Below are positions 37,895-54,340 of a stretch of DNA of 64,000 bases, piece after piece (the stretch's first letter is position 1; each line of letters starts with the position of its first letter). The DNA comes from Phytophthora colocasiae (taxonomy: Eukaryota; Oomycota; Peronosporomycetes; Peronosporales; Peronosporaceae). The notes under the pieces were generated by a model. The model was given only the letters and a program-made list of their open reading frames with translations. It was not told the origin of the DNA and ran no database searches. A program made the translations under genes and the position numbers. The stretch lies in NCBI GenBank assembly GCA_018806915.1, contig JAGKQI010000079.1, positions 62,001 to 126,000 of the forward strand, given 5' to 3'.

Positions 37895-39270
37895 TGTAAT
37901 AGGTCTACCTACACTAACTACAGCATTTAGTGTTAATAACACTATTGATGAGGCCCTGCTCTGAGATTATGCACTGAAATTAGTGTTAATAACGCTAATT
38001 AAAAACTAACACTATCTGTGGTACAAACAATTAGTGTTAGCGATGGTATAAATAAGAAGGAATTCTTATACAATAGCCTCTAGCAGCTCTCCAGACAGGG
38101 TTTGCGTCTGAGCCTGTGCTAGTGTAAGATCTTTAGACGGTTGTAGTTGTGCTAGGCCAGCATCTTCAACCGGTTTGCCTTGAAAATGATCATAATGATC
38201 TGCAATGATGAACTGAAGCTCTTCACTTAGCTGATCAATTCTCCACTTGTCATTTACGGTAGCAAGACCACAACAATCATCCAATTAATAACCGAATATC
38301 GCTCTTGCTTTGTCACGACGTGTTGGACCTGTCGTTTACGTTTTCCTGAAGTTTTTGATACTTCAACTTGCGCGACTTGTGAGATGTCATCTTCACCAGT
38401 TCCGGGCGCACTAGGTTCATGTGAGCCAGCGTTTTTACGCGCTTGCGCGCATTCGCGTTGCTGTTGAGCTAGTCGTCTGGCACGATTCATTGCCACAACA
38501 ATCGTGTATGGTCGTTTTGTCGAGCACACTTGCGGAGTAGAAACGGTAGGTGGTGCTTGAGATATCGACGGATGCGTGCTTGGTGCGGCAGGATAATTTG
38601 TGTCGTGAGCAGTAGGCATTGCAAAGGTTGTGGGTGGCGAAGTGCTGCTCTTGGAGAATGTTAGGAAGTGTTTGAGCTGCATATGCATTGGTCTGAGCTT
38701 CTCTGCCGCCATACCTAAAATAGTGTTAGATTTTCTTGCCTTTCAGAGCCCACACAAATTAGTGTTAATAACACTATATAAAAACTAACACTATTCATCC
38801 ACTAACACTAAATGCTGTAGTTAGTGTAGACCTATTAGGTGGCGTACACGTGCGCTTACGTGTATGAGGAAGCGTGCAATTAGAATAGACTTAATTTAAG
38901 TATACTTATTTAAATAAGTATAATTAAATCAAATATAACTAAATTAAACTGCAAAATACAGTAAAATGAGAACTGTTATTGAATTTGGCATAAGCCAATT
39001 ATGGACCTCCTAAAACTGTTTGTTATCTATTTCTAAAGGGTCTGCCAACGTGTGGTTGGCAGAACTCTGCTCAGTGATTGGTAGAAATCCGTTACTTTCT
39101 ACCAATAATATGCACAAATGCACACGAACCACCCAATAATGTGGTTCGCCCATGTATCCATTGGTGTGTACAGCACACCAAGGTCTGAGGCCCATATCCA
39201 ACCTCTAACAGTTATCCTAACTGTTAGAGGTACAAGTGGTACAACCACTTGTACGTGTAACCCTGTTACA
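37895..39270 (-). repeat. Gypsy-1 3' LTR, split by a TA-flanked element
   Basis: 37895-37911 and 38827-39270 together match the 460-bp LTR at 46466-46925. Plus-strand ends are TGTAATAGG and CCTGTTACA. Confidence 0.88.
37912..38826 (-). mobile_element. TA-flanked DNA element inside the gypsy LTR
   Basis: 915 bp flanked by TA at 37910-37911 and 38827-38828. Both ends begin CACTAACTACAGCATTTAGT (perfect inverted repeats, about 24 bp), followed by subterminal copies of ATTAGTGTTAATAACACTA-like palindromes. It carries two overlapping minus-strand frames (38254-38712 and 38066-38284): a Pro/Ser-rich head, a basic stretch (SKTSGKRKRQVQHVVTKQ) and a helical tail; they look like one short gene with a shift near 38270. 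No DDE triad is visible, so probably non-autonomous. TA duplication fits a Tc1/mariner-like or related element; the CACTA-like end with a 2-bp duplication leaves the superfamily open. Confidence 0.72.
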
Positions 39271-39324
39271 CCATCCCCCCGTTAAGATTCGACGTATCGG
39301 TCTCGATACGTCAATCAACAGAAC

Positions 39325-40893
39325 TTGACAAGACCGTCAAGTTCCCGAGAGAAATCCGAGTTCATTTCGCAATGGACTCGCCAACGCCCACGTCTCCGTC
39401 CGCGTCTGCGGACGCGCAAGCCTCACCTGCTGCCTCTGCACACTAGCACTGCTGCTTCCAGCGGTCCGACAGAGAAGCTCTCTGTCACCAAGTACCATGC
39501 TCTCCATAAGGAGAAGCATGAGAAGAAGAAGAAGTCTTCTTCTCTAGCAGAGATTAAGAATCCTGCTGTCCCTCTCAAAGAGCTCTTTGGAGAGGACTAC
39601 GAAGACATCCTCGACTACGAGGAGGATGTCGAGGAGGGGGAGGTTGATGTCAAGGCTCCCGCTCTCGTGTCTTCGTCCGAAGACACGTCAGACCCACCCG
39701 TGGGATCTCGACGACCTCGTGATGAGGCCTCGGACGCTTCAAGCTCGAAGCGTCCGCGCAGTGATGATGGAGCGTCCCCCATGTCGAGGGCGCTTACTGC
39801 CCCGCGCACTGATCCGCCAGTGTGCACACCATGGATGCCTACTGAGGCAGAGATCCATGACCGGTTCGGTGCTAGTTCACCACCGAACCCGATACGGTTG
39901 TACTCATGCAACAGTATTAACGACGACGACGTCGCCGCTAAGGTTGTCTTTGAGTCCGAGACTCAAAGACGCGACTACTATATCGGGCTCTTCCACGAGC
40001 TCCGATACTATGCAGCGAAGAAGACTTCGCGCAAGAGCAAAGTGCCAGAGTGGCAGGCACTTTGCCAGTCGTGGAACGCCTTTGTTGATAACTTCAACAA
40101 AGACCCGAAGGCGTATCGCGAGCGCGTTGCTGCGGCTCGCGATCGCTACTACACTTACACTACGCGTGGTAAGTGTGAACGCCTCCATGATCAGTCCATG
40201 GAAGCGGGGATCCCATGTGCCGTTCCCTTTGGCACACCCTGTCCGTGTTGCCAACCCTTGGCAACACGTCTCACCGAAAGTGATCTCCTGGGGTACACGG
40301 TCGTCCGTGTACCCGATCACATCAAGGAGCTCCGTGGTCGTATTGTGCCACGCGAAGCTCCGAGTGCTGTGGCTAATCGCAGCACTCCTCGTGCAGGGCT
40401 TACCCCTGCAAGTTATGGTGGGCTTCGTACGCCCTCACCATTTCCGGAACGTCCTCCATCAGGACGTTCCGCGGCTCCCATGTATCTCGATGGGGAGGAC
40501 ATCCTCTCCAACGAATACGAAAACGAACCCCTTGAGAGTTCGTTCTCTTATGAGCCACGATCCGCTCAACAATCCAGCGGATCGCTCCACGCGCGTCGCG
40601 CAACGGCGGCGGAGGGGGTGGGAACACTCCCTCCGCATGGTCAACGCTATGACCATGACGATCGTGCCCTGCACGATCGAGTTGCTGCGCTGGAGCAGAC
40701 ACAGAGCGCTGAGATAGCGGCTCTGAAGCAGGAGGTTCGTGTCCTCCGTGCTGAGGTCTGCGAGGCAGCTCAGACTGCCTCGAACCTCTCGTCCGGTCTT
40801 TGGACGAGAGTGAACCGGTTGATCGACCGTGTCGACGGTCTCGAGAAGGCCTTCCAGGCCTCTCGCACTCCTCAGTCGGACTACCAACCCTAG
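39325..40893 (+). CDS. Gypsy-1 antisense ORF, acidic/basic protein with C-terminal coiled coil
   Basis: 522 codons are open on the strand opposite to pol, between the 3' LTR and the integrase end. The frame opens with a TTG; an ATG at 39372 in another frame starts a plausible N terminus, so one small indel near 39440 may separate them. Features: KHEKKKKSSS basic patch, acidic GEDYEDILDYEEDVEEGEVD, nuclear-type SSSKRPRSDD, a central folded-looking part (about residues 190-330, with RGKCERLHDQ and a TPCPCC cluster), and a coiled coil at about 450-515. 40400-40893 overlaps the chromodomain frame on the other strand. I do not recognise the family. Uninterrupted length beside a decayed pol suggests selection or recent decay. 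Confidence 0.5.
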   Translation: MTRPSSSREKSEFISQWTRQRPRLRPRLRTRKPHLLPLHTSTAASSGPTEKLSVTKYHALHKEKHEKKKKSSSLAEIKNPAVPLKELFGEDYEDILDYEEDVEEGEVDVKAPALVSSSEDTSDPPVGSRRPRDEASDASSSKRPRSDDGASPMSRALTAPRTDPPVCTPWMPTEAEIHDRFGASSPPNPIRLYSCNSINDDDVAAKVVFESETQRRDYYIGLFHELRYYAAKKTSRKSKVPEWQALCQSWNAFVDNFNKDPKAYRERVAAARDRYYTYTTRGKCERLHDQSMEAGIPCAVPFGTPCPCCQPLATRLTESDLLGYTVVRVPDHIKELRGRIVPREAPSAVANRSTPRAGLTPASYGGLRTPSPFPERPPSGRSAAPMYLDGEDILSNEYENEPLESSFSYEPRSAQQSSGSLHARRATAAEGVGTLPPHGQRYDHDDRALHDRVAALEQTQSAEIAALKQEVRVLRAEVCEAAQTASNLSSGLWTRVNRLIDRVDGLEKAFQASRTPQSDYQP

Positions 40894-40909
40894 GTAGTCC
40901 ATGCTGCAC
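40400..40909 (-). pseudogene. Gypsy-1 pol C-terminal linker and chromodomain
   Basis: In frame with the integrase after a TAG at 40910-40912, which is probably a mutated sense codon. The C-terminal half is a clear chromodomain: RWIVERIVAHKRT, VRFRIRWRGCPPH, DTWEPRNVL. Chromodomains on gypsy integrases direct insertion to marked chromatin. The linker is Arg/Ser/Pro-rich and lies antisense to the coiled-coil part of the plus-strand ORF. Confidence 0.8.
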
Positions 40910-43724
40910 CTACGGCTTCAACCGCCCGACGTAGAAGGTCGGGTGGAGCCTCATGCTGGACGGTATGTCCAACCGGTACGCGTTGCCGTGCCGTTCAAGT
41001 ACTTTGAACGGCCCAATGAATCTTGGAGCAAGCTTGCTTTCTCCAAAGTCAGACACTGCATGTTTAGGCAGGTTTTGTGTAGCTAACAAAACTAATGAAC
41101 CCTTTTCGAATTCATTTGTGTTGCCCCTACCAACATTATCAGCGTTCAGCTTCTGTCGATCGGCAGAAGCTGCAATAGCATCCTGGACAAACCGTATGAT
41201 GGCTTGTCTTCGCTGGACAAAGTCTAGCGCACCCGAGCTGAATCCTTTCAGCTTGTCGCCCTTGTCAGCAGCAGGCCCTGCCTGCTCGCTATCATCTCTC
41301 ATGTCTGTGCCCGGCACAGACATCGCGCACTCGTTCCTGCTCGAACGAGACGTCGCACGCGTCACCGCCGCTAATAATGTGCTGCTATCAGTTGCATTTT
41401 GCGGTTGTTCGTACGCAACCGTAGATTCTCCCCTACTTAAGGAGGAAGCTACCCCGCCGAGCATGCTCGGCAATCGTGGATGCCTCATGGCGTTCACGTA
41501 GAACGGTGTATGCCCTGTCGAGGCATGCACCGAGTTGTTGATGGCGAACTCTGCCATCGGCAAGCACTCGCTCCAATGCGGGAACGAGTGAGCGTAGCTC
41601 TTCAACGTGTCACCCAGTACACGGTTGACACGTTCGGTCTGGCCGTCCGTCTGCGGATGATCCGTAGTCGACATTGAAAATTGTGAACCAAGAAGTGTAA
41701 ACACTTCTTGCCAGAACCGCGCTGTGAAGCGCGGATCACGGTCCGACACAATGTCGAGCGGCATGCCATGGTGTTTGAAGACCATGTCAACAAACAGTCG
41801 CGCAGTCTGCGCGGCTGTAACAGTAGCCGGGACGGCAGCAAGATAAACCATCTTGCTGAATCGGTCCACAAAGACAACGATGCCCGTCCTCCGCTTGCTG
41901 TCAGGCCGAAGACCGAAGACAAAGTCCATGGACATGGACTGCCAGCACTCCGACGGAGTCGGTAGTGATTGAAGAGGAGCCTGCGAGAACTGCGCAGGCT
42001 TCACGCGTTGACAAACCTCGCAAGCACGTACGTACTTGCGCACCCACTTGTACTGGTGGTGCCAGTAGAAATCACGCGTGAAAAGAGTGTATGTCTTCTC
42101 ACGACCCGGATGCCCTGCCGTGGGGGCATCGTGATACTCGAACATGATCCTCAACCGGAGGTCATGATCATTCGGAACGACAATGCGATCCGCATTGTCG
42201 TCTAGTGCACTGTACAACAGTAGGCCTTCGTGTACACGATAGCGGTGTACACGAGCTCGAAGATGAGGGGATAGCTTCCGACGTGCCACGTCGGAAGGTG
42301 CTGCGAGGAACTCCAGCAGCCCCTTCGCGTCTGCATCCCTTGCATACGCGTTCGTCACGTCGTCAATCAACGTTGACGACGGCACACTTGTCCTCACGAC
42401 GCCAACTGCGTTGGCGTCGACCGTCTCCGCGTAGTCAGGTCGACGCGATAACGCGTCGGTCACTACATTGAGTCTTCCGGGTTTGTACTCCACCCGGAAG
42501 TTGTACTCCGCGAAGAAGGACAACCATCTCGCCATACGTTGCGAGATATGCGGCGACTTAATCGCCGTACGCAATGATGCGTGGTCTGTATAGACCACGA
42601 ACGGTCTACTCCCAAGTAGATACACTCGGAACTTTGCGAGTGCATACTTCATGGCAAGGAGCTCCTTGTCATGTACGGGATAGTTACGCTCAGCTGGCTT
42701 CAGCTGACGCGATTGATAGTAGACTACACGATCACGCCCTTCGTGATCGTGTTGCATCAATGCACATCCGATTGCAAAGTCGGATGCATCGCACACTACG
42801 TGGAATGGACGATCTTGGTCCGCCATGGCCAAGATCGGCGCTTCAGTCAAGCCCTGCTTGACTGCACCGAATGCATCCTCGCACTCGGTCGTCCAAATCC
42901 ACTCAGCTTCTTTCTTGAGAAGCTGTGACAACGGGCGAATCTTGTCCGCATAGTTCTCCACGTACTTGCACAAGTACGTGGCAAGCCCAAGGAACTGCCT
43001 CAGTTCCTTCACATTGGATGGCGTGGGCCATTAATTGATCACTCTGACCTTCTCTGGGTCAGGGCGCACGCCGTCTTTCCCCACGAGACACTCCAGCACG
43101 GGTATCTCGCTTGCCCCGAAGATACACTTCTTCAGGTTCGCATAGAGCTTATGTTTCCTCATAAGCTCTAGCAGCTTCCGGAGATGCACCTTGTGCATCT
43201 CAATATCCGTCTTCCCGTTCACAGCCCGGCTGTGGACGAATACGTCGTCGAAGTAGCTCGGTGCGAAGTCGCGCACCGAGCGCAATAGATGTGTCACGCA
43301 TCTATTGAACGTCGCAGGGGAGTTCTTAAGCCCCTGTGGCATGACGAGCCACTCCCAAAGCATACCGCTTGGAGTGCTTACCGCAGTGAGAGGGATGTCC
43401 CTCTCACGCGAGGATCTGATAGAATCCATCACGCAGATCTAGAGCACTGAAGATAGTGCTCAAGGCCATCGAATCGATGATGACATCTTTTCGCGGTATC
43501 GGCGTCTGCGCCGGTATCGTCGCATCGTTTAGCTTGTTATACGCATGAACGATGCGCCAGCCGCCCTTTGGTTTCTTAACACAGAACGTTGGAGCACTGT
43601 GCGGGGACTTTGACTCCCGCACTTGACCTGCAAGACGACGACTTTCAAAGAAGTCGTCGATCGCTTGCACTTGTTCACGCGGCAGTAGCCACTGCCGTGT
43701 AACACAGTACTTCGTGCCCGGCAC
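40910..43724 (-). pseudogene. Gypsy-1 reverse transcriptase, RNase H and integrase
   Basis: RT begins around 43724 (CVKKPKGGWRIVHAYNKLN), with the frame shifting near 43410-43430 and again at about 43020. The catalytic box is SYFDDVFVHS (about 43235). From 43012 to 40910 a 700-codon frame holds the RT thumb (LRQFLGLATYLCKYV), RNase H (FHVVCDASDFAIGC, DKELLAMKYAL, VYTDHASL), the integrase zinc domain (HPGREKTYTLF then CEVCQRVKP) and core (SMDFVFGLRPD, DRDPRFTARFW, TDGQTERVNRVL), ending at GRLKP and a TAG. RT is broken by shifts; the RNase H and integrase part is intact. Confidence 0.92.
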
Positions 43725-44830
43725 GAGATCAATCTCGTGCTGTACGCCCTTGTCCTTCGGAAGGTCCGACGAGCTGCTTCAGCTCTTCGGCCTCGCGCTC
43801 CACTCTCTCGATATCCGAGAGAATGCAAATTTGTTCGATGCGTCCATCGTACAAGTCTCGTGCGAAGCGCTTCCAACTCATCGTTGGAAGTGCGGTCAAC
43901 GCCGACGCACTCGTCGGCGGATTCTCCAACCGCATCCTCTGGTACTGTAACCCAGTACCAGTACGTGTCAAGACGTTCAACGTCTCGACACTCGGTGTCT
44001 GCACTGCAGATACACCCGTCTCAGTCCCGGACTGAGACTCGCGCAGCTCCCTGAGCTTGCGCCGCGAAGGTCTACCGTGGAGCCCGGCTCCAGGTGCTCC
44101 ACGTCCAAGGCATCACACCTTGGACGGGACGTTAACGCAATCGTCAGCGGATTCCTTCCGCTGACTCGCACTATCAAGCCCTGCTTGAGTGCCGCTCATC
44201 GCGTGCAGCGCTGCTGCACGTGAGCACACGCAGGTTGTTCGGGTGCTGGACGTTTGCAACCGCCAGCACCTCCTGCCGCGCAGTCGGTTCCCTGAACCGC
44301 TGCGCCTTTATCCGCTCCCGGAGCGGATGAAGCAACCGCATCGTCGACTCCCGGAGTCGACGTGCTCTCGCTAGCTTCCTGCGCTAGCGAGTGTTCGCTT
44401 GTACACATATCGTCAGCTCCCAGAGCTGACGCACGTTCGCTAGTTCCCGGAACTAGCAGCGAACGTTCGCTTGTACACGCATCATCAGCTCCCGGAGCTG
44501 ATGCACGATCGCTAGTTCCCAGAACTAGCAGCGACGCGCCAGTGGCGTACGCCTTTCGGTTCCCCGAATATTATTTGCTTCGTCAACTCCCAGAGTTGAC
44601 GCAACGTCGTCGGCGCGACCCTTGGGGGCTTGAAGTACCTCCAAGGATACCGGTAATACCGGTATTTTACCTTCTCTCAGGTGAATGCGATTCACCTGAC
44701 CATCACTCATGTGACAAACATCATTCAGATGTTTATGCGTCAGGTGATTCACATTCACCTGACCATCACTCATGTGACCGCGACCCTTCGGCTCAGATTT
44801 CTGAGTCGACACACATTTTCTCCCAACGAC
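43725..44830 (-). pseudogene. Gypsy-1 protease-RT connector, decayed and repeat-rich
   Basis: Connects protease to RT on the minus strand. 44004-43729 still reads as polyprotein (WKRFARDLYDGRIEQIC and an ERVEREAEELKQL helix). 44160-44560 is a run of near-identical hairpins built from GTCAGCTC/GAGCTGAC and GCTAGTTCC/GGAACTAGC arms, and the frame is lost there. 44690-44790 has direct repeats of a TCACCTGACCATCACTCATG unit. Confidence 0.7.
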
Positions 44831-45472
44831 TCACGGAGTTGTTGATGGTCGCCGGCGGCGATCATCGGCAGCGGTGGCCGCTGCTGCCTCAACTGGGGAT
44901 CCACATGCACCGGCCGATGCATGTGCAGCACTGACAGGGCCATCGCTCTCTGTCACGCATGTGTTGTTGAAGCGTACGAGCGTACGCTTCTCCCAGTTGA
45001 TCACCGGGTCATGCCGTGCAAGCCACGGCATGCCTAATACCAAGTCGAACTTATCGTCTAGATCCAAGACGATAAGATCTTCTACAAACGTCCTTCGTTT
45101 GTAAGAGAAGCGCACACGGACTACGCGCTTCTCAGTCCTCACGGTGGCACCTGTTGCCAACCGCACCTCCAACACGCCGCGAGGCGTGTCGGCCTCTTCG
45201 AAGTCAAGCCTTCGAAGACTTTCCTGTCGAACAAAGTTGTTCGACGCGCCCGAGTCCACTAGGGCACGAAGAGAGTTCGCTCTCTTCGACATCACGTTCA
45301 GGATGACAAGGTTTGGCTTGTCATCTTGCAGCTTACAGCGAGAAACCTTCTCGCTGGGGGCAGCAGTCCTCATCGCCGCGTGTCCAAGCTCGACACGCGA
45401 GACTGCATCACCAGTAGGACGCCCCGCGCCTACTGGTCCTTGGCGTTTTTTGAACGCCCGCCCGCTGTGCAC
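44831..45472 (-). pseudogene. Gypsy-1 aspartic protease region
   Basis: The retroviral-type protease motif LVDSGASNNF and the flap/strand DLVLGMPWLARHDP are present. The frame overlaps the end of gag by 43 nt in another phase, so it was reached by frameshift or has drifted. It ends in a Thr/Pro tail at 44831. Confidence 0.85.
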
Positions 45473-46416
45473 TCGCGTGCATAGTGACCGATGTTACTAC
45501 ACTTGTAACATCGAACCTTGCTGTTCCTACGCTGATGTTGACCAGCAGTCGTAGCACTCGAGAGGTCCATAGGTTCCGGACCTCTCGTCTTCACAACAGG
45601 ACGCGCCGGCTTCGGCGCATTCGCATGGAGTTTAGCTTGACGCCGGCTAAACTCCTCTTGCATTGCAAGGCTGATCGCCTCCTCGAGAGTATTCGGATAC
45701 TCTCGGAAGAGATACGTCTTGACGGGACCATCTCTTAGTCCCTTCATGAACATGACGACCTTGGTCGCCTCGTCGATCGGGTTCGCCACTATGTTCGATA
45801 CCAAGTATCGAGCACGCTGGGCAAAGGTGTGAACATCATCCTTGCCCTGTTGCAGATCGAGAAACTCCGCTCTCGATCTGAACTCGTTCTTCGGGGGCTC
45901 AAACGCAAGCTTGAGCTCCTCTTTGAACACCTCGTACGTGCCGAAGCACGTAGGATCCGAGAGTCGGCGCCCATAGGCCCAACTCCTCGCACGTCCGCCA
46001 AGACATGACATGGCGAACGCGACCTTCGACATCGGATCGACGATACGTCGAGCCGCAACGGCTGTGTCGAGTTCGACAAGCCACCGAAGGAGGGTCTCGT
46101 CCTCCTTCCCCGTGTAGGTACTCACGTGGAGTTTCAACGACTCCACGCGTGGCTCAGGGGAAGCCACCGAGGCAGCAACATCTCGTTGCTCCTTAACAAT
46201 TTACCCCAGAGCAACACCGTGTTGCTCTGTCGGCGATAGCGTACGAAGCATCGTAGCTACCGCTGCCTCTCCAATGACTCGCGAGAGTCTTTGGAGAGCC
46301 TCCCACTCTGGATCAGACAGGTGGGCGCAGTCCGTGCGCGTCACGGACATTTGAGGGGTCCCAGCAGATCCCTCATCCATTGGGGAGTTCTCTACCCCGC
46401 GTTCGTATGACTCCAT
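45430..46416 (-). pseudogene. Gypsy-1 gag with in-frame stop
   Basis: Starts at ATG 46414-46416. A TAA at 46201-46203 interrupts after 71 codons; the same frame continues for 245 more. The capsid-like part (YTGKEDETLLRWLVELD, FMKGLRDGPVKTYLF) precedes a CCHC knuckle (CYKCSNIGHYAREC) near 45480. Structural protein of the particle, dead in this copy. Confidence 0.88.
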
Positions 46417-46465
46417 ACGAATGAACAGCAGTCGGTCGTGGGACGGACTACAAAGTGCTACCAGG

Positions 46466-46925
46466 TGTAATAGGTCTACCTAAACGTATTAGGTGGCGTA
46501 CACGTGCGCTTACGTGTATGAGGAAGCGTGCAATTAGAATAGACTTAATTTAAGTATACTTATTTAAATAAGTATAATTAAATCAAATATAACTAAATTA
46601 AACTGCAAAATACAGTAAAATGAGAACTGTTATTGAATTTGGCATAAGCCAATTATGGACCTCCTAAAACTGTTTGTTATCTATTTCTAAAGGGTCTGCC
46701 AACGTGTGGTTGGCAGAAACTCTGCTCAGTGATTGGTAGAAATCCGTTACTTTCTACCAATAATATGCACAAATGCACACGAACCACCCAATAATGTGGT
46801 TCGCCCATGTATCCATTGGTGTGTACAGCACACCAAGGTCTGAGGCCCATATCCAACCTCTAACAGTTATCCTAACTGTTAGAGTTACAAGTGGTACAAC
46901 CCCTTGTACGTGTAACCCTGTTACA
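46466..46925 (-). repeat. Gypsy-1 5' LTR
   Basis: 460 bp, plus-strand ends TGTAATAGG and CCTGTTACA. Matches 38829-39270 almost base for base. TGGTAGCACTTTG follows 2 bp inside on the minus strand as a candidate primer site. Confidence 0.9.
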
Positions 46926-47831
46926 GAATTCCTCGAACACGGGCACATCTGACACCTCCCAACGATCGATAACTGCCATTTCTTCCGAAAAGTCGTCTTC
47001 TCTAAGCTTAACAGCTGGTTCCCATGTCCATAGGTAGAGCTTCTTACAGCTTCGGTCTGGATGCACCCAGAGAACACGGTACTCCATGCCCAACGCTCCT
47101 TCACGCCGATCATTAATATAGGCCACCTCCCAGACCTCGACTGTGGTTACAAACCGGCGGTCCACTGAGATATCCCGACCCGTTTAATATTCACCATATA
47201 TTTCGTAATATAACTGGTCGGGGGTTGTTGTCTCGTCAGCAACGATAGTAGTTCGTTTGGTGGCAGTCAGTGTGTGTCTACTGGCAGTCGGTGTTTGTTT
47301 AGTTGCAGTAGACGGCTGGTCGGGAGCAACAGTCAGATTTTCGGACGTAGTCACACAGTTCATCGGCTCAGCTGCTTGAACCGCTTCCATAGCCTCAACG
47401 ATTGCATCGTCAACGAAGCAGCGTACACGAGCACACTTGCAGCGTGTGCACCGCGAGCGAGTGGCGTTGGTAAATTTGCAAATGCGACAAACCCAGTGCC
47501 CGCTCTTTGCCTTTCTGGCTCGTCTGTCACTAACATACCCGTTTTTCGAGACATTAGGGAGCGGCGAAGCCACCGCGGGGTCGTGGCTCGACCCCTGCGC
47601 GCGCACTTCCGTCCCGCTCCCCGTGTCTTCTGCTGTCGTGCAAGGTGGGTTCTCTGGTACCGTTTCGCCACTGTCTGTGGCCGCAGTCGCAGCTCGTGCG
47701 GCAGCCCTAGCAATTTTAGCAGCTCGAATTTGCTTGGCTGTTCTCTTCCTTCTGGTCTTCCCTTTCTTGATGGGAGCTGATCTATGTAGCACAGCATCCC
47801 TCTGCACACCTGTCTTCCAGACACGAGCCAT
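46926..47831 (-). pseudogene. Copia antisense gene, 5' part: RanBP2-type zinc finger and chromo-like segment
   Basis: Starts at ATG 47829-47831 (the frame is open to 47933). A basic head (KKGKTRRKRTAKQIRAAKIA) precedes a Ser/Thr-rich region. The zinc finger WVCRICKFTNATRSRCTRCK fits RanBP2-type fingers (W-x-C-x2-C-x3-N-x6-C-x2-C), and a Thr-rich linker follows. A single TAA at 47184-47186 interrupts; the same frame then gives a chromo-like segment (VEVWEVAYINDRREG, YRVLWVHPD, TWEPAVKL) up to the gypsy insertion at 46926. It resumes in the same phase at 37889 with the OTU-like domain. About 470-500 residues in all. It lies opposite to copia pol, between pol and the 3' LTR. Confidence 0.55.
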
Positions 47832-49050: not shown

Positions 49051-49278
49051 TGTAGTAGGTCTTAACGATAAACCACTCCTAGGGAAGCTGGCGCTTCCTG
49101 GTAAACCCAAAGTCTATTGTGAGTCGTAGAATGTAGAATCTCTAATGTCCACTGGTTGGCACAGCTAAGTCCTAACCAATGCTGTCCTAACCCTTAACTA
49201 GCCAGCTTGGCAATGCTCTCATGAGCTTTGCCCTGTGTGAGGTGGCGGAGGCTTACCATCGAGATCCCCACCACTACA
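49051..49278 (-). repeat. Gypsy-2 3' LTR
   Basis: 228 bp, TGTAGTAGG to CCACTACA on the plus strand; same sequence as 54113-54340. Confidence 0.95.
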
Positions 49279-54112: not shown

Positions 54113-54340
54113 TGTAGTAGGTCTTAACGATAAACCACTCCTAGGGAAGCTGGCGCTTCCTGGTAAACCCAAAGTCTATTGTGAGTCGTAGAATGTAGAA
54201 TCTCTAATGTCCACTGGTTGGCACAGCTAAGTCCTAACCAATGCTGTCCTAACCCTTAACTAGCCAGCTTGGCAATGCTCTCATGAGCTTTGCCCTGTGT
54301 GAGGTGGCGGAGGCTTACCATCGAGATCCCCACCACTACA
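54113..54340 (-). repeat. Gypsy-2 5' LTR
   Basis: 228 bp identical by eye to 49051-49278; GAAAC follows at 54341-54345. Confidence 0.95.

Follow-up and report, generated by a model that had tools for sequence, protein, structure and literature searches.

A gypsy element in the genome of Phytophthora colocasiae is tiled from end to end with short perfect hairpins, and this tiling is real and very strong. The explanation that we favour, with a probability of roughly 0.45, is that template switching writes the stems, with a limit on stem length. The analysis covered a window of 64,000 nt (assembly GCA_018806915.1, contig JAGKQI010000079.1, positions 62,001-126,000, forward strand). Unless otherwise given, a stem is a perfect inverted repeat with arms of at least 8 bp and a loop of 1-10 nt.

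The element and its hairpins

Judged from its sequence, the element is a chromodomain Ty3/Gypsy retrotransposon on the minus strand at 38825-46925. These bounds follow from its two LTRs and replace the span of 37895-46925 that the original prediction had given. Its parts are:

38825..39270, minus strand: LTR, left in the window, the 3' end of the element (self-comparison; termini compared with other copies)
46466..46925, minus strand: LTR, right in the window, the 5' end of the element, TG...CA (self-comparison, termini)
45430..46167, minus strand: gag ORF with Retrotrans_gag, Ty3_capsid and zinc knuckle (Pfam, ORF list)
44831..45472, minus strand: aspartic protease ORF, RVP_2 (Pfam, ORF list)
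44309..44601: connector with five related 9-bp hairpin units (alignment of units)
43013..43408, minus strand: reverse transcriptase part (row C33:104230-105408)
40910..43012, minus strand: pol ORF with RNase H, integrase and SH3_Tf2-1 (Pfam, ORF list)
40400..40909, minus strand: chromodomain ORF (Chromo, E=1.2e-12)
39325..40893, plus strand: antisense ORF, 522 aa (ORF list)

As in chromoviruses, gag with its CCHC knuckle, protease, RNase H, integrase and chromodomain follow each other in this order on one strand, and the two LTRs are near-identical (98.9% over 445 bp in self-comparison) with TG...CA ends. The left LTR is slightly shortened at its outer end by a deletion that the right one lacks; an apparent inverted segment at this end turned out to be a plain deletion. 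The flanks look unequal as a target-site duplication (GTTAG on the left, GAATT on the right), the left LTR end carrying the deletion. The reverse transcriptase part is out of a single open frame with pol here and open in many other copies, and near 43767 about 140 bp are missing that many other copies contain. The antisense ORF shows protein-level constraint in other copies, and the connector holds a tandem array of 72-bp units at 44386-44534. No Rfam family matched at gathering score in 38700-47000, no tRNA features were found in the element and no relatives were found in viral contigs.

All 11 inverted repeats that had been named beforehand are perfect at their coordinates. With both LTRs included, 37895-46925 contains 103, 76, 34 and 15 stems with arms of at least 8, 9, 10 and 11 bp, respectively, against 13, 4, 2 and 0 in the remaining ~55 kb of the window. 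Twenty dinucleotide shuffles of the same span gave means of 1.5, 0.35, 0.15 and 0.05 stems (maxima 6, 2, 1 and 1). Synonymous-codon shuffles, 200 per ORF, gave a similar picture: 20 stems in pol against a mean of 0.68 (maximum 3), 11 in the protease (44831-45429) against 0.46 (maximum 3), 7 in gag against 0.14 (maximum 2), 7 in the chromodomain ORF against 0.22 (maximum 2) and 21 in the antisense ORF against 0.66 (maximum 3). In this check, which was set beforehand, the hairpin count is therefore far above both kinds of shuffle.

It was also correctly proposed that the LTRs and the coding sequence are alike in this respect, and that the nested LINE, copia and gypsy-2 sequences differ. Stems are present in both LTRs and in all the ORFs counted; those of the left LTR are at 38901, 39041, 39077, 39125, 39161, 39201 and 39230, and the stem listing shows six of the seven again in the right LTR. 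Two gypsy-2 ORFs and two presumed LINE ORFs have only 1, 0, 0 and 1 stems, and the copia stretch at 32-38 kb has 0-2 stems per kb in the per-kb table. The proposed density of a hairpin every 20-40 nt was too high, since 99 non-overlapping stems of at least 8 bp in 7.65 kb leave a mean gap of 53 nt; the spacing, when searched for evenness, was indistinguishable from random.

Lowering the arm length to at least 7 bp gives 131 stems, which make up 38% of the element, and arms of 4-7 bp are likewise in excess. Arm length is 8-11 bp in 109 of 111 stems (arms of at least 8 bp, loops of 0-14 nt). Arms are longer beside loops of less than 3 nt (9.8 vs 9.1 bp, p=0.004), which suggests that the folded unit as a whole matters. 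A listing of short loops revealed no conspicuous shared motif. Two ideas on placement were rejected. Placement through synonymous sites showed no clear difference, with the 3:3 phase in 28/119 stems and in 111/390 chance control stems. As for stems at variable residues, the conservation of arm codons was 0.685 vs 0.733 (10 relatives), and 6% of circular shifts were equally low.

Distribution among related elements

In the loci sampled, dense hairpins mark a clade of gypsy elements. A stem excess was found in all nine sampled loci at 51-59% pol identity (seven against shuffles, two by density) and in none of the 17 sampled loci of other gypsy lineages of the same genome at 41% pol identity or less; nine sampled loci at 33-41%, seven of them bearing SH3_Tf2-1, had no hairpins above chance. 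Family 1 has ~13 stems per kb and two groups related to it have 3-4 per kb, nearly all of 8-11 bp, while a third family has mostly 6-8 bp stems. The upper stem size thus differs by family, being 11 bp in family 1 and about 8 bp in family 3.

These data leave practically no weight to chance, base composition, codon usage or a sequencing or assembly artefact. The excess over dinucleotide and codon shuffles is roughly 15-90 fold, each of 45 stems in the main stretch recurs in at least 25 of 33 copies, and the 17 loci above serve as controls from the same genome. Nothing of weight speaks for such an origin; the GC content of family-2 arms is above the sequence average (0.67-0.70 vs ~0.60).

The positions of the stems largely turn over between families. 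None of the 21 window stems that can be aligned to L044 is kept there, and only one of 20 family-1 stems is retained in family 3. The idea of conserved functional sites was largely rejected because most family-1 stems have no counterpart at the homologous position in families 2 and 3.

Inverted loops and changes in the arms

If template switching writes the stems, they would arise and be renewed while the element is copied. The nascent strand, or both complementary strands, would switch template locally at a weak dyad, one arm would be copied from the other to give Watson-Crick-perfect arms in one step, and the loop would occasionally end up inverted. The upper size typical of each family may be set by how far this copying runs or by an intolerance of longer stems. 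The turnover of stem positions, the restriction to one clade among the loci sampled, the likeness of LTR and coding parts, and mismatches without wobble preference also speak for this explanation.

Direct support comes from inverted loops, the trace that inter-strand template switching leaves behind. Comparison of copies shows the exact reverse complement, with the arms intact, in 12 of 92 loops belonging to stems with arms of at least 8 bp (11/91 with the LTR counted once); 48 of the loops have multi-base variants, and the 12 are among these. In six control sets of 92, none of 173 multi-base variable segments was an exact reverse complement. Plain reversal and plain complement were found in one loop each, and several flips are common to 2-3 copies. 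Cases from the copy comparison are:

39201..39231: 14-bp LTR stem, loop TCC; GGA in copy L036
39741..39746: loop AAGCTC; GAGCTT in copy L023
40301..40304: loop TCGT; ACGA in copy L020
42188..42190: pol-stem loop ATC; GAT in copy L040
42407..42409: loop TGC or AGC; GCT in L016, L025 and L028, GCA in L038
42737..42741: loop CCCTT; AAGGG in copies L028, L029 and L036
44193..44230: 8-bp stem; in copy L033 a perfect 17-bp stem with inverted loop

In L033 a single copy combines the flipped loop with a stem that has lengthened from 8 to 17 bp. Replacement of sequence by the reverse complement of its neighbourhood, as expected of template switching, is thus present. Across the element as a whole, 13 of the 21 inverted cores found lie between arms of at least 7 bp; short inverted cores alone prove little, because six of 3-4 nt lie outside stems and 15 plain reversals also occur.

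The original prediction had offered template switching during reverse transcription as one cause of the dyads and had proposed compensatory changes in aligned copies as a check set beforehand. Between paralogous units these changes were found: in the five hairpin units of the connector three of nine base pairs are altered on both sides in a complementary manner, and the covariation score of 0.467 vs 0.213 is reached by none of 500 shuffles, although two of five covariation measures are not above shuffles. Among copies they are weak: covariation is seen in only 6 of 1437 pairs, where steady copying from arm to arm ought to leave more, and polarised minority changes (in at most three copies) in 39437-43765 include one stem gain vs 0.44 expected. 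Apparent stem gains in single copies proved to be mostly decay of the window copy instead. The 17 stem losses vs 19.6 expected indicate ordinary decay, so for recent changes the arms do in part mutate independently. Such decay is expected for dead genomic copies, yet it limits the case. Overwriting of arms relative to families 2a and 2b gave no signal, the arms being neither more diverged nor unequal (for example, asymmetry 0.192 vs 0.196) in what is a weak test at 58% nucleotide identity.

On balance, we infer that switching is the main source of the stems, that it probably occurs in reverse transcription rather than in host replication, and that stem retention contributes alongside it. Under template switching the sharp stop at 11 bp needs an additional cause. 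A bolder version, which we put forward tentatively and as somewhat less probable, is a clade whose replication has an inbuilt bias towards writing palindromes: during its reverse transcription one arm of a local fold would be copied onto its partner, which would tile the whole genome, coding and non-coding, with perfect hairpins. Stem length would be heritable per family (~9 bp in one, 6-7 bp in another), and the texture would persist although positions shift.

Folding, selection and comparison with other systems

A serious rival to template switching is selection for folded RNA or DNA: comparison of copies gives weak signals of stem gain, of compensation and of arm asymmetry. Selection for folded genomic RNA, in which many short stems would be useful wherever they lie and would have been made by point mutation and selection, is a less likely account than template switching. 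Such stems could, for example, be inaccessible to siRNA-guided silencing while staying below a Dicer-like length, or serve compaction or packaging. Predicted minus-strand RNA folding agrees with it, at z -9.5 and -6.8 against shuffles in two hand-picked 401-nt stretches vs +2.6 in a single control stretch of gypsy-2, as do the sharply limited stem size and the longer arms around the shortest loops. Published work in which Phytophthora retrotransposons are a source of small RNAs (PMC3804510) fits as well.

Against folded RNA stands the lack of the G-U tolerance that is expected of ordered RNA structure. Mismatches show no G-U preference on either strand and are ordinary transitions and transversions; in genomic minus-strand RNA 5 of 23 one-mismatch stems are of G-U type (A-C on the plus strand), and 15 of 61 shared unpaired variants vs 99 of 312 singletons. 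In favour of folded RNA, arms are less variable than other sites in shared variants when stems are chosen in the window (2.9% vs 6.2%) or from at least 25 copies (1.7% vs 5.7%), but with stems from any copy the difference is smaller and no longer significant (4.1% vs 5.3%). Strong purifying selection on the arms was rejected, the first figure being inflated because the stems had been chosen in the window copy. Positions are little conserved between families and the loop inversions stay unexplained. For the suggested selection for a folded genome or RNA, the strong predicted folding of the two stretches and the bounded length speak in favour; the missing wobble preference, the mostly unconserved positions and the dependence of arm variability on stem choice speak against it.

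Another hypothesis, which we regard as improbable, is selection on DNA. Single-stranded cDNA or the integrated copy would form hairpins or cruciforms, which might, for instance, protect the cDNA or affect chromatin. Strict Watson-Crick pairing without strand asymmetry and stems in the LTRs and in ORFs on both strands agree with it. However, it too leaves the loop inversions unexplained, we know of no function of DNA hairpins or cruciforms of this kind, and a cruciform whose arms measure 9 bp is not stable in duplex DNA.

The element resembles Ty3/Gypsy chromoviruses in having gag with zinc knuckle, protease, reverse transcriptase, RNase H, integrase and chromodomain between LTRs; dense perfect hairpins through LTRs and ORFs set it apart from the nine sampled loci at 33-41% pol identity, and an antisense gene under coding constraint is a further difference. 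Genome-scale ordered RNA structure in RNA viruses has folding energy far below shuffles, as do the two stretches folded here, whereas here the stems are short, perfectly Watson-Crick and size-bounded, on an element with a DNA stage and in non-coding LTRs too. RNA viruses likewise carry dispersed packaging signals as many short stem-loops along the genome; here the short loops listed have no evident common motif, and loops occur in both orientations. A further precedent is the origin and upkeep of RNA hairpins through template-switch mutations (Monttinen and Loytynoja, 2022; PMC8794818). There, the events are in rRNA and miRNA genes and tied to DNA replication, and complete loop inversions are very rare. 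Perfect stems, concerted arm changes and loops fully inverted by inter-strand switching are common to both, while here ~100 size-bounded stems lie on one mobile element, with inversions in 12 of 92 loops. A literature search, judged mostly from search results, found no description of a hairpin-tiled retrotransposon. New here are the clade-marking trait, loops inverted in place, the turnover of positions and the missing G-U preference.

If template switching writes the stems, these elements document in nature what is elsewhere known as rare single events, and the process could be measured on them, with many copies, ~100 sites per copy and a stem length particular to each family. If the stems are selected, a retrotransposon genome is shaped throughout by structure, in the LTRs, gag-pol and the antisense gene, which bears on silencing avoidance or RNA packaging by elements in RNAi-competent hosts. 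On either reading, the origin of perfect stems becomes testable on abundant material, and a trait shared by close relatives but absent from the other elements sampled suggests that this clade copies or protects its genome in an unusual manner.

Gypsy-1 and its hairpins

Gypsy-1 is a Ty3/Gypsy chromodomain retrotransposon on the minus strand (38825-46925), with Pfam matches to gag and a zinc knuckle, an aspartic protease, RNase H, an integrase with SH3_Tf2-1 and a chromodomain. Its LTRs are:

38825-39270, LTR
46466-46925, LTR

It was suggested from the sequence alone that this element is tiled with short perfect hairpins, and all 11 of the 11 examples listed in that original prediction are perfect. 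A count of perfect inverted repeats whose arms reach 8 bp or more, around loops of 1-10 nt (stems, unless stated otherwise), gave 103 in 37895-46925 versus 13 in the remaining 55 kb, whereas 20 dinucleotide-preserving shuffles of the same region gave a mean of 1.5 and a maximum of 6. Synonymous-codon shuffles (200 per ORF) gave 0.68 stems versus 20 observed in the pol ORF, 0.46 versus 11 in the protease ORF, 0.14 versus 7 in the gag ORF and 0.22 versus 7 in the chromodomain ORF. Such low shuffle counts indicate that base composition and codon use do not account for the stems. As predicted, gypsy-2 and the presumed LINE of the window do not share this pattern: their ORFs, two of each, have 1 and 0 (gypsy-2) and 0 and 1 stems (LINE).

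With loops of 0-14 nt there are 111 stems of at least 8 bp, with arms of 8 (30), 9 (45), 10 (19), 11 (15), 12 (1) and 14 bp (1). The excess spans every arm length from 4 to 11 bp, with a second peak at 9 and an abrupt end past 11 (Table), and the short-arm part of it may partly consist of longer stems after decay. Among stems of at least 8 bp, the loop mode is 3-7 nt, loops of 19-29 nt are absent and those above that range are scattered as elsewhere. Arms are longer where the loop is below 3 nt (9.8 versus 9.1 bp, p=0.004), so that the unit seems to be the stem as folded, closed by 3 nt or more of loop. The 99 non-overlapping stems are spaced as at random (mean gap 53 nt).

Table. Stems by arm length, observed/expected. 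Gypsy-1 counts leave out the second LTR; counts for L065, a family 3 locus, include loops up to 13 nt.
Arm (bp) Gypsy-1 L065
4 292/245.5
5 108/62.5 20/15.8
6 56/16.6 20/3.8
7 31/4.4 12/1.0
8 27/1.2 5/0.1
9 44/0.3 0 observed
10 20/0.1 2 observed
11 12/0
12 0 observed
13 or more 1 observed

A 401-bp stretch of the element gave 286 candidates in the genome (92.5 Mb, 105 contigs), and the 40 scored among them are all 98-100% identical. Long open frames are present in many copies, so this family (family 1) was probably active recently. Among the 120 matches listed for pol, the named sources are Phytophthora or Globisporangium and the best 24 are all Phytophthora. On the opposite strand an ORF of 522 aa (39325-40893, plus strand) has no Pfam match, but of 8000 candidates scored 517 are homologues at E<=0.001; the 120 matches listed are nearly all from Phytophthora, the nearest named being P. 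citrophthora and P. oleae. Across 39437-40393, with 319 sites per codon position, variants shared among 26 other copies number 17 at first, 10 at second and 47 at third positions, and a stop is absent from 24 of the 26, by which the ORF looks like a genuine protein-coding gene lying antisense to gag-pol. The stretch 39569-40097 is absent from six of the 39 compared copies (L020, L022, L028, L036, L038 and L042), a subfamily without much of the part that is antisense only. Near 43767 (43767-43769) the window copy lacks ~140 bp carried by many other copies. Just outside the element an identical 8-bp palindrome is found at 37928-37944 and 38760-38776, ~830 bp apart, perhaps as the ends of another inserted sequence. 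Identical 228-bp repeats (49051-49278 and 54113-54340) flank the gypsy-2 ORFs and are probably the LTRs of a very recent insertion.

Stems in related families

The families were compared as a sample of loci hand-picked from search listings. In family 1, 29 loci of 5 kb average 13.0 stems per kb (range 8.8-14.3). Two related groups (families 2a and 2b, ~51-59% pol identity) are represented by eight loci with 3.0-4.2 per kb, where stems of at least 8 bp likewise have arms of 8-11 bp; six of the eight hold 12-22 stems where shuffles give about 1, and one (L044) has many 5-7 bp stems besides. In family 3 the stem-length limit is shorter: in 1.8 kb of L065, at 55% pol identity, 5 stems reach 8 bp, but 35 reach 6 bp where 3.6 are expected, and two other family 3 copies (L070, L071) have 36 each. 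No stem was found in any of the 8 gypsy-2 lineage loci, and 9 further gypsy loci (33-41% pol identity) show no excess (2 stems in 16.2 kb, 2.2 expected).

Stem positions are seldom kept between families. Of 112 window stems, only 21 can be aligned as DNA to L044, and not one of these survives there even when one mismatch is allowed; one of 20 is kept in L045. For the closer pair L045 and L049 (~8% apart), 13 stems align in one direction, 9 of them unchanged and one covarying but still perfect; in the opposite direction 9/18 are identical and 3/18 perfect with covariation. From family 1 to family 3 one of 20 is kept, in a conserved integrase stretch; from family 3, 6/39 recur in family 1 with at most one mismatch, 2/39 in L044 and 1/39 in L045, and from L044 to family 3 none of 6. 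It is thus mainly the texture that is inherited, though a few places are shared. The clearest shared stem lies in the integrase (41836-41858, SKMVHLA codons): family 1 has it in common with family 3, and L044 of family 2 almost does.

Loop inversions and concerted changes

The window copy was compared with 39 others, many covering only part of the element. In 12 of 92 loops (at least 3 nt, stems of at least 8 bp) some copy carries the loop exactly reverse-complemented between intact arms; an LTR loop is counted twice, leaving 11 independent places, and one inversion (39530) sits in a GAA repeat. Multi-base variants occur in 48 of the 92 loops. One loop is reversed without complement and one complemented without reversal. 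Six control sets of 92 equal-length segments outside stems (173 multi-base variable in all) contain no inversion. Stems of 6-7 bp add 3 in 91 loops. By scanning all segments of 3-39 nt, 21 inverted cores were found (13 between arms of at least 7 bp, another 2 lying within these 13, and 6 of 3-4 nt elsewhere), together with 15 plain reversals and 2 plain complements. Most loop inversions are single-copy; CCCTT/AAGGG and AGC/GCT occur in three copies each. In one copy (L033) the loop of the stem at 44202 is inverted and its arms match perfectly over 17 pairs, versus 8 in other copies.

Five paralogous hairpin units (44309-44601) differ on both sides in 3 of 9 pairs and on one side, to U-G, in one end pair, and every cell pairs. 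Their covariation score (0.467 versus 0.213) and their two-sided changed cells (6 versus 2.0) were each reached in 0 of 500 shuffles; the numbers of pairs with two-sided change (as high in 99/500) and of pair types (383/500) are unremarkable. At 44386-44534 there is a tandem array of 72-bp units with two kinds of hairpin each, near which hairpin units are gained or lost between copies.

The compensatory change looked for in the arms is present between paralogous units, but among copies a double complementary change was found in only 6 of 1437 pairs.

Template switching or selection

We propose, with a probability of roughly 0.45, that the stems are written by local template switching, a reading that fits arms pairing strictly by Watson-Crick rules with no wobble, loops turned round, a stem extended in concert, changes on both sides of a pair between paralogous units, and positional turnover. 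One study (PMC8794818) proposes such switching for rRNA and miRNA genes and takes complete loop inversion as a sign of an inter-strand mechanism. Of the template-switching idea in the original prediction, the inversions, the L033 extension and the paralogous changes speak in favor; covariation among copies is weak, and switching does not explain why stem length stops so sharply or why the limit differs from family to family. A copying step of fixed reach, or removal of longer stems, might set that length.

On the plus strand, where G-U in minus-strand genomic RNA reads as A-C and in antisense RNA as G-T, 23 stems with one internal mismatch comprise 9 G-T, 5 A-C and 9 others, about the mix expected from decay. 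Unpaired variants in at least two copies (over the 1437 pairs, leaving out 84 without a Watson-Crick majority) are 23 G-T, 15 A-C and 23 transversions, at most a slight lean to G-T (singletons 86, 99 and 127).

The main rival, selection for folded RNA, is somewhat less probable but serious. Two stretches of the element, picked by hand, have folding z scores of -9.5 and -6.8 versus +2.6 for one gypsy-2 stretch. In Phytophthora, small RNAs from transposable elements are mainly of 24-30 nt and those from inverted repeats mainly of 21 nt (PMC3804510), so stems shorter than Dicer-like enzymes take could be useful. Arm conservation hinges on the choice of stems: variants in at least two copies affect 2.9% of arm, 13.9% of loop and 6.2% of other sites for window-defined stems (2.2, 20.6 and 9.7% at pol third codon positions), 1.7, 13.3 and 5.7% for stems in at least 25 copies (p=0.0002), and 4.1, 10.6 and 5.3% for stems from any copy, where the arm effect has p=0.43. 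In a comparison with families 2a and 2b, whose 58% nucleotide identity makes the test weak, arms diverge about as other sites do, both equally; family 1 stem pairs are complementary at 42-46% of aligned places there versus ~25% for slid partners, by our own estimate roughly what shared letters alone give.

Across 39437-43765 in 33 copies, changes in up to three copies make 1 stem gain (0.44 expected), in a GAA repeat, and 17 losses versus 19.6 expected. These counts indicate that dead copies decay neutrally and that stem births are infrequent on this time scale. Apparent gains in single copies were mainly mutations of the window copy instead.

The element itself is of a known kind; its hairpin architecture could be matched to no known one, and literature searches brought up no account of an LTR element covered in short perfect hairpins. 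A mixture of template switching and selection for folded RNA is likely. The confinement of the stems to one clade, in LTRs and ORFs alike, suggests that stem writing is a property of the element's own replication.
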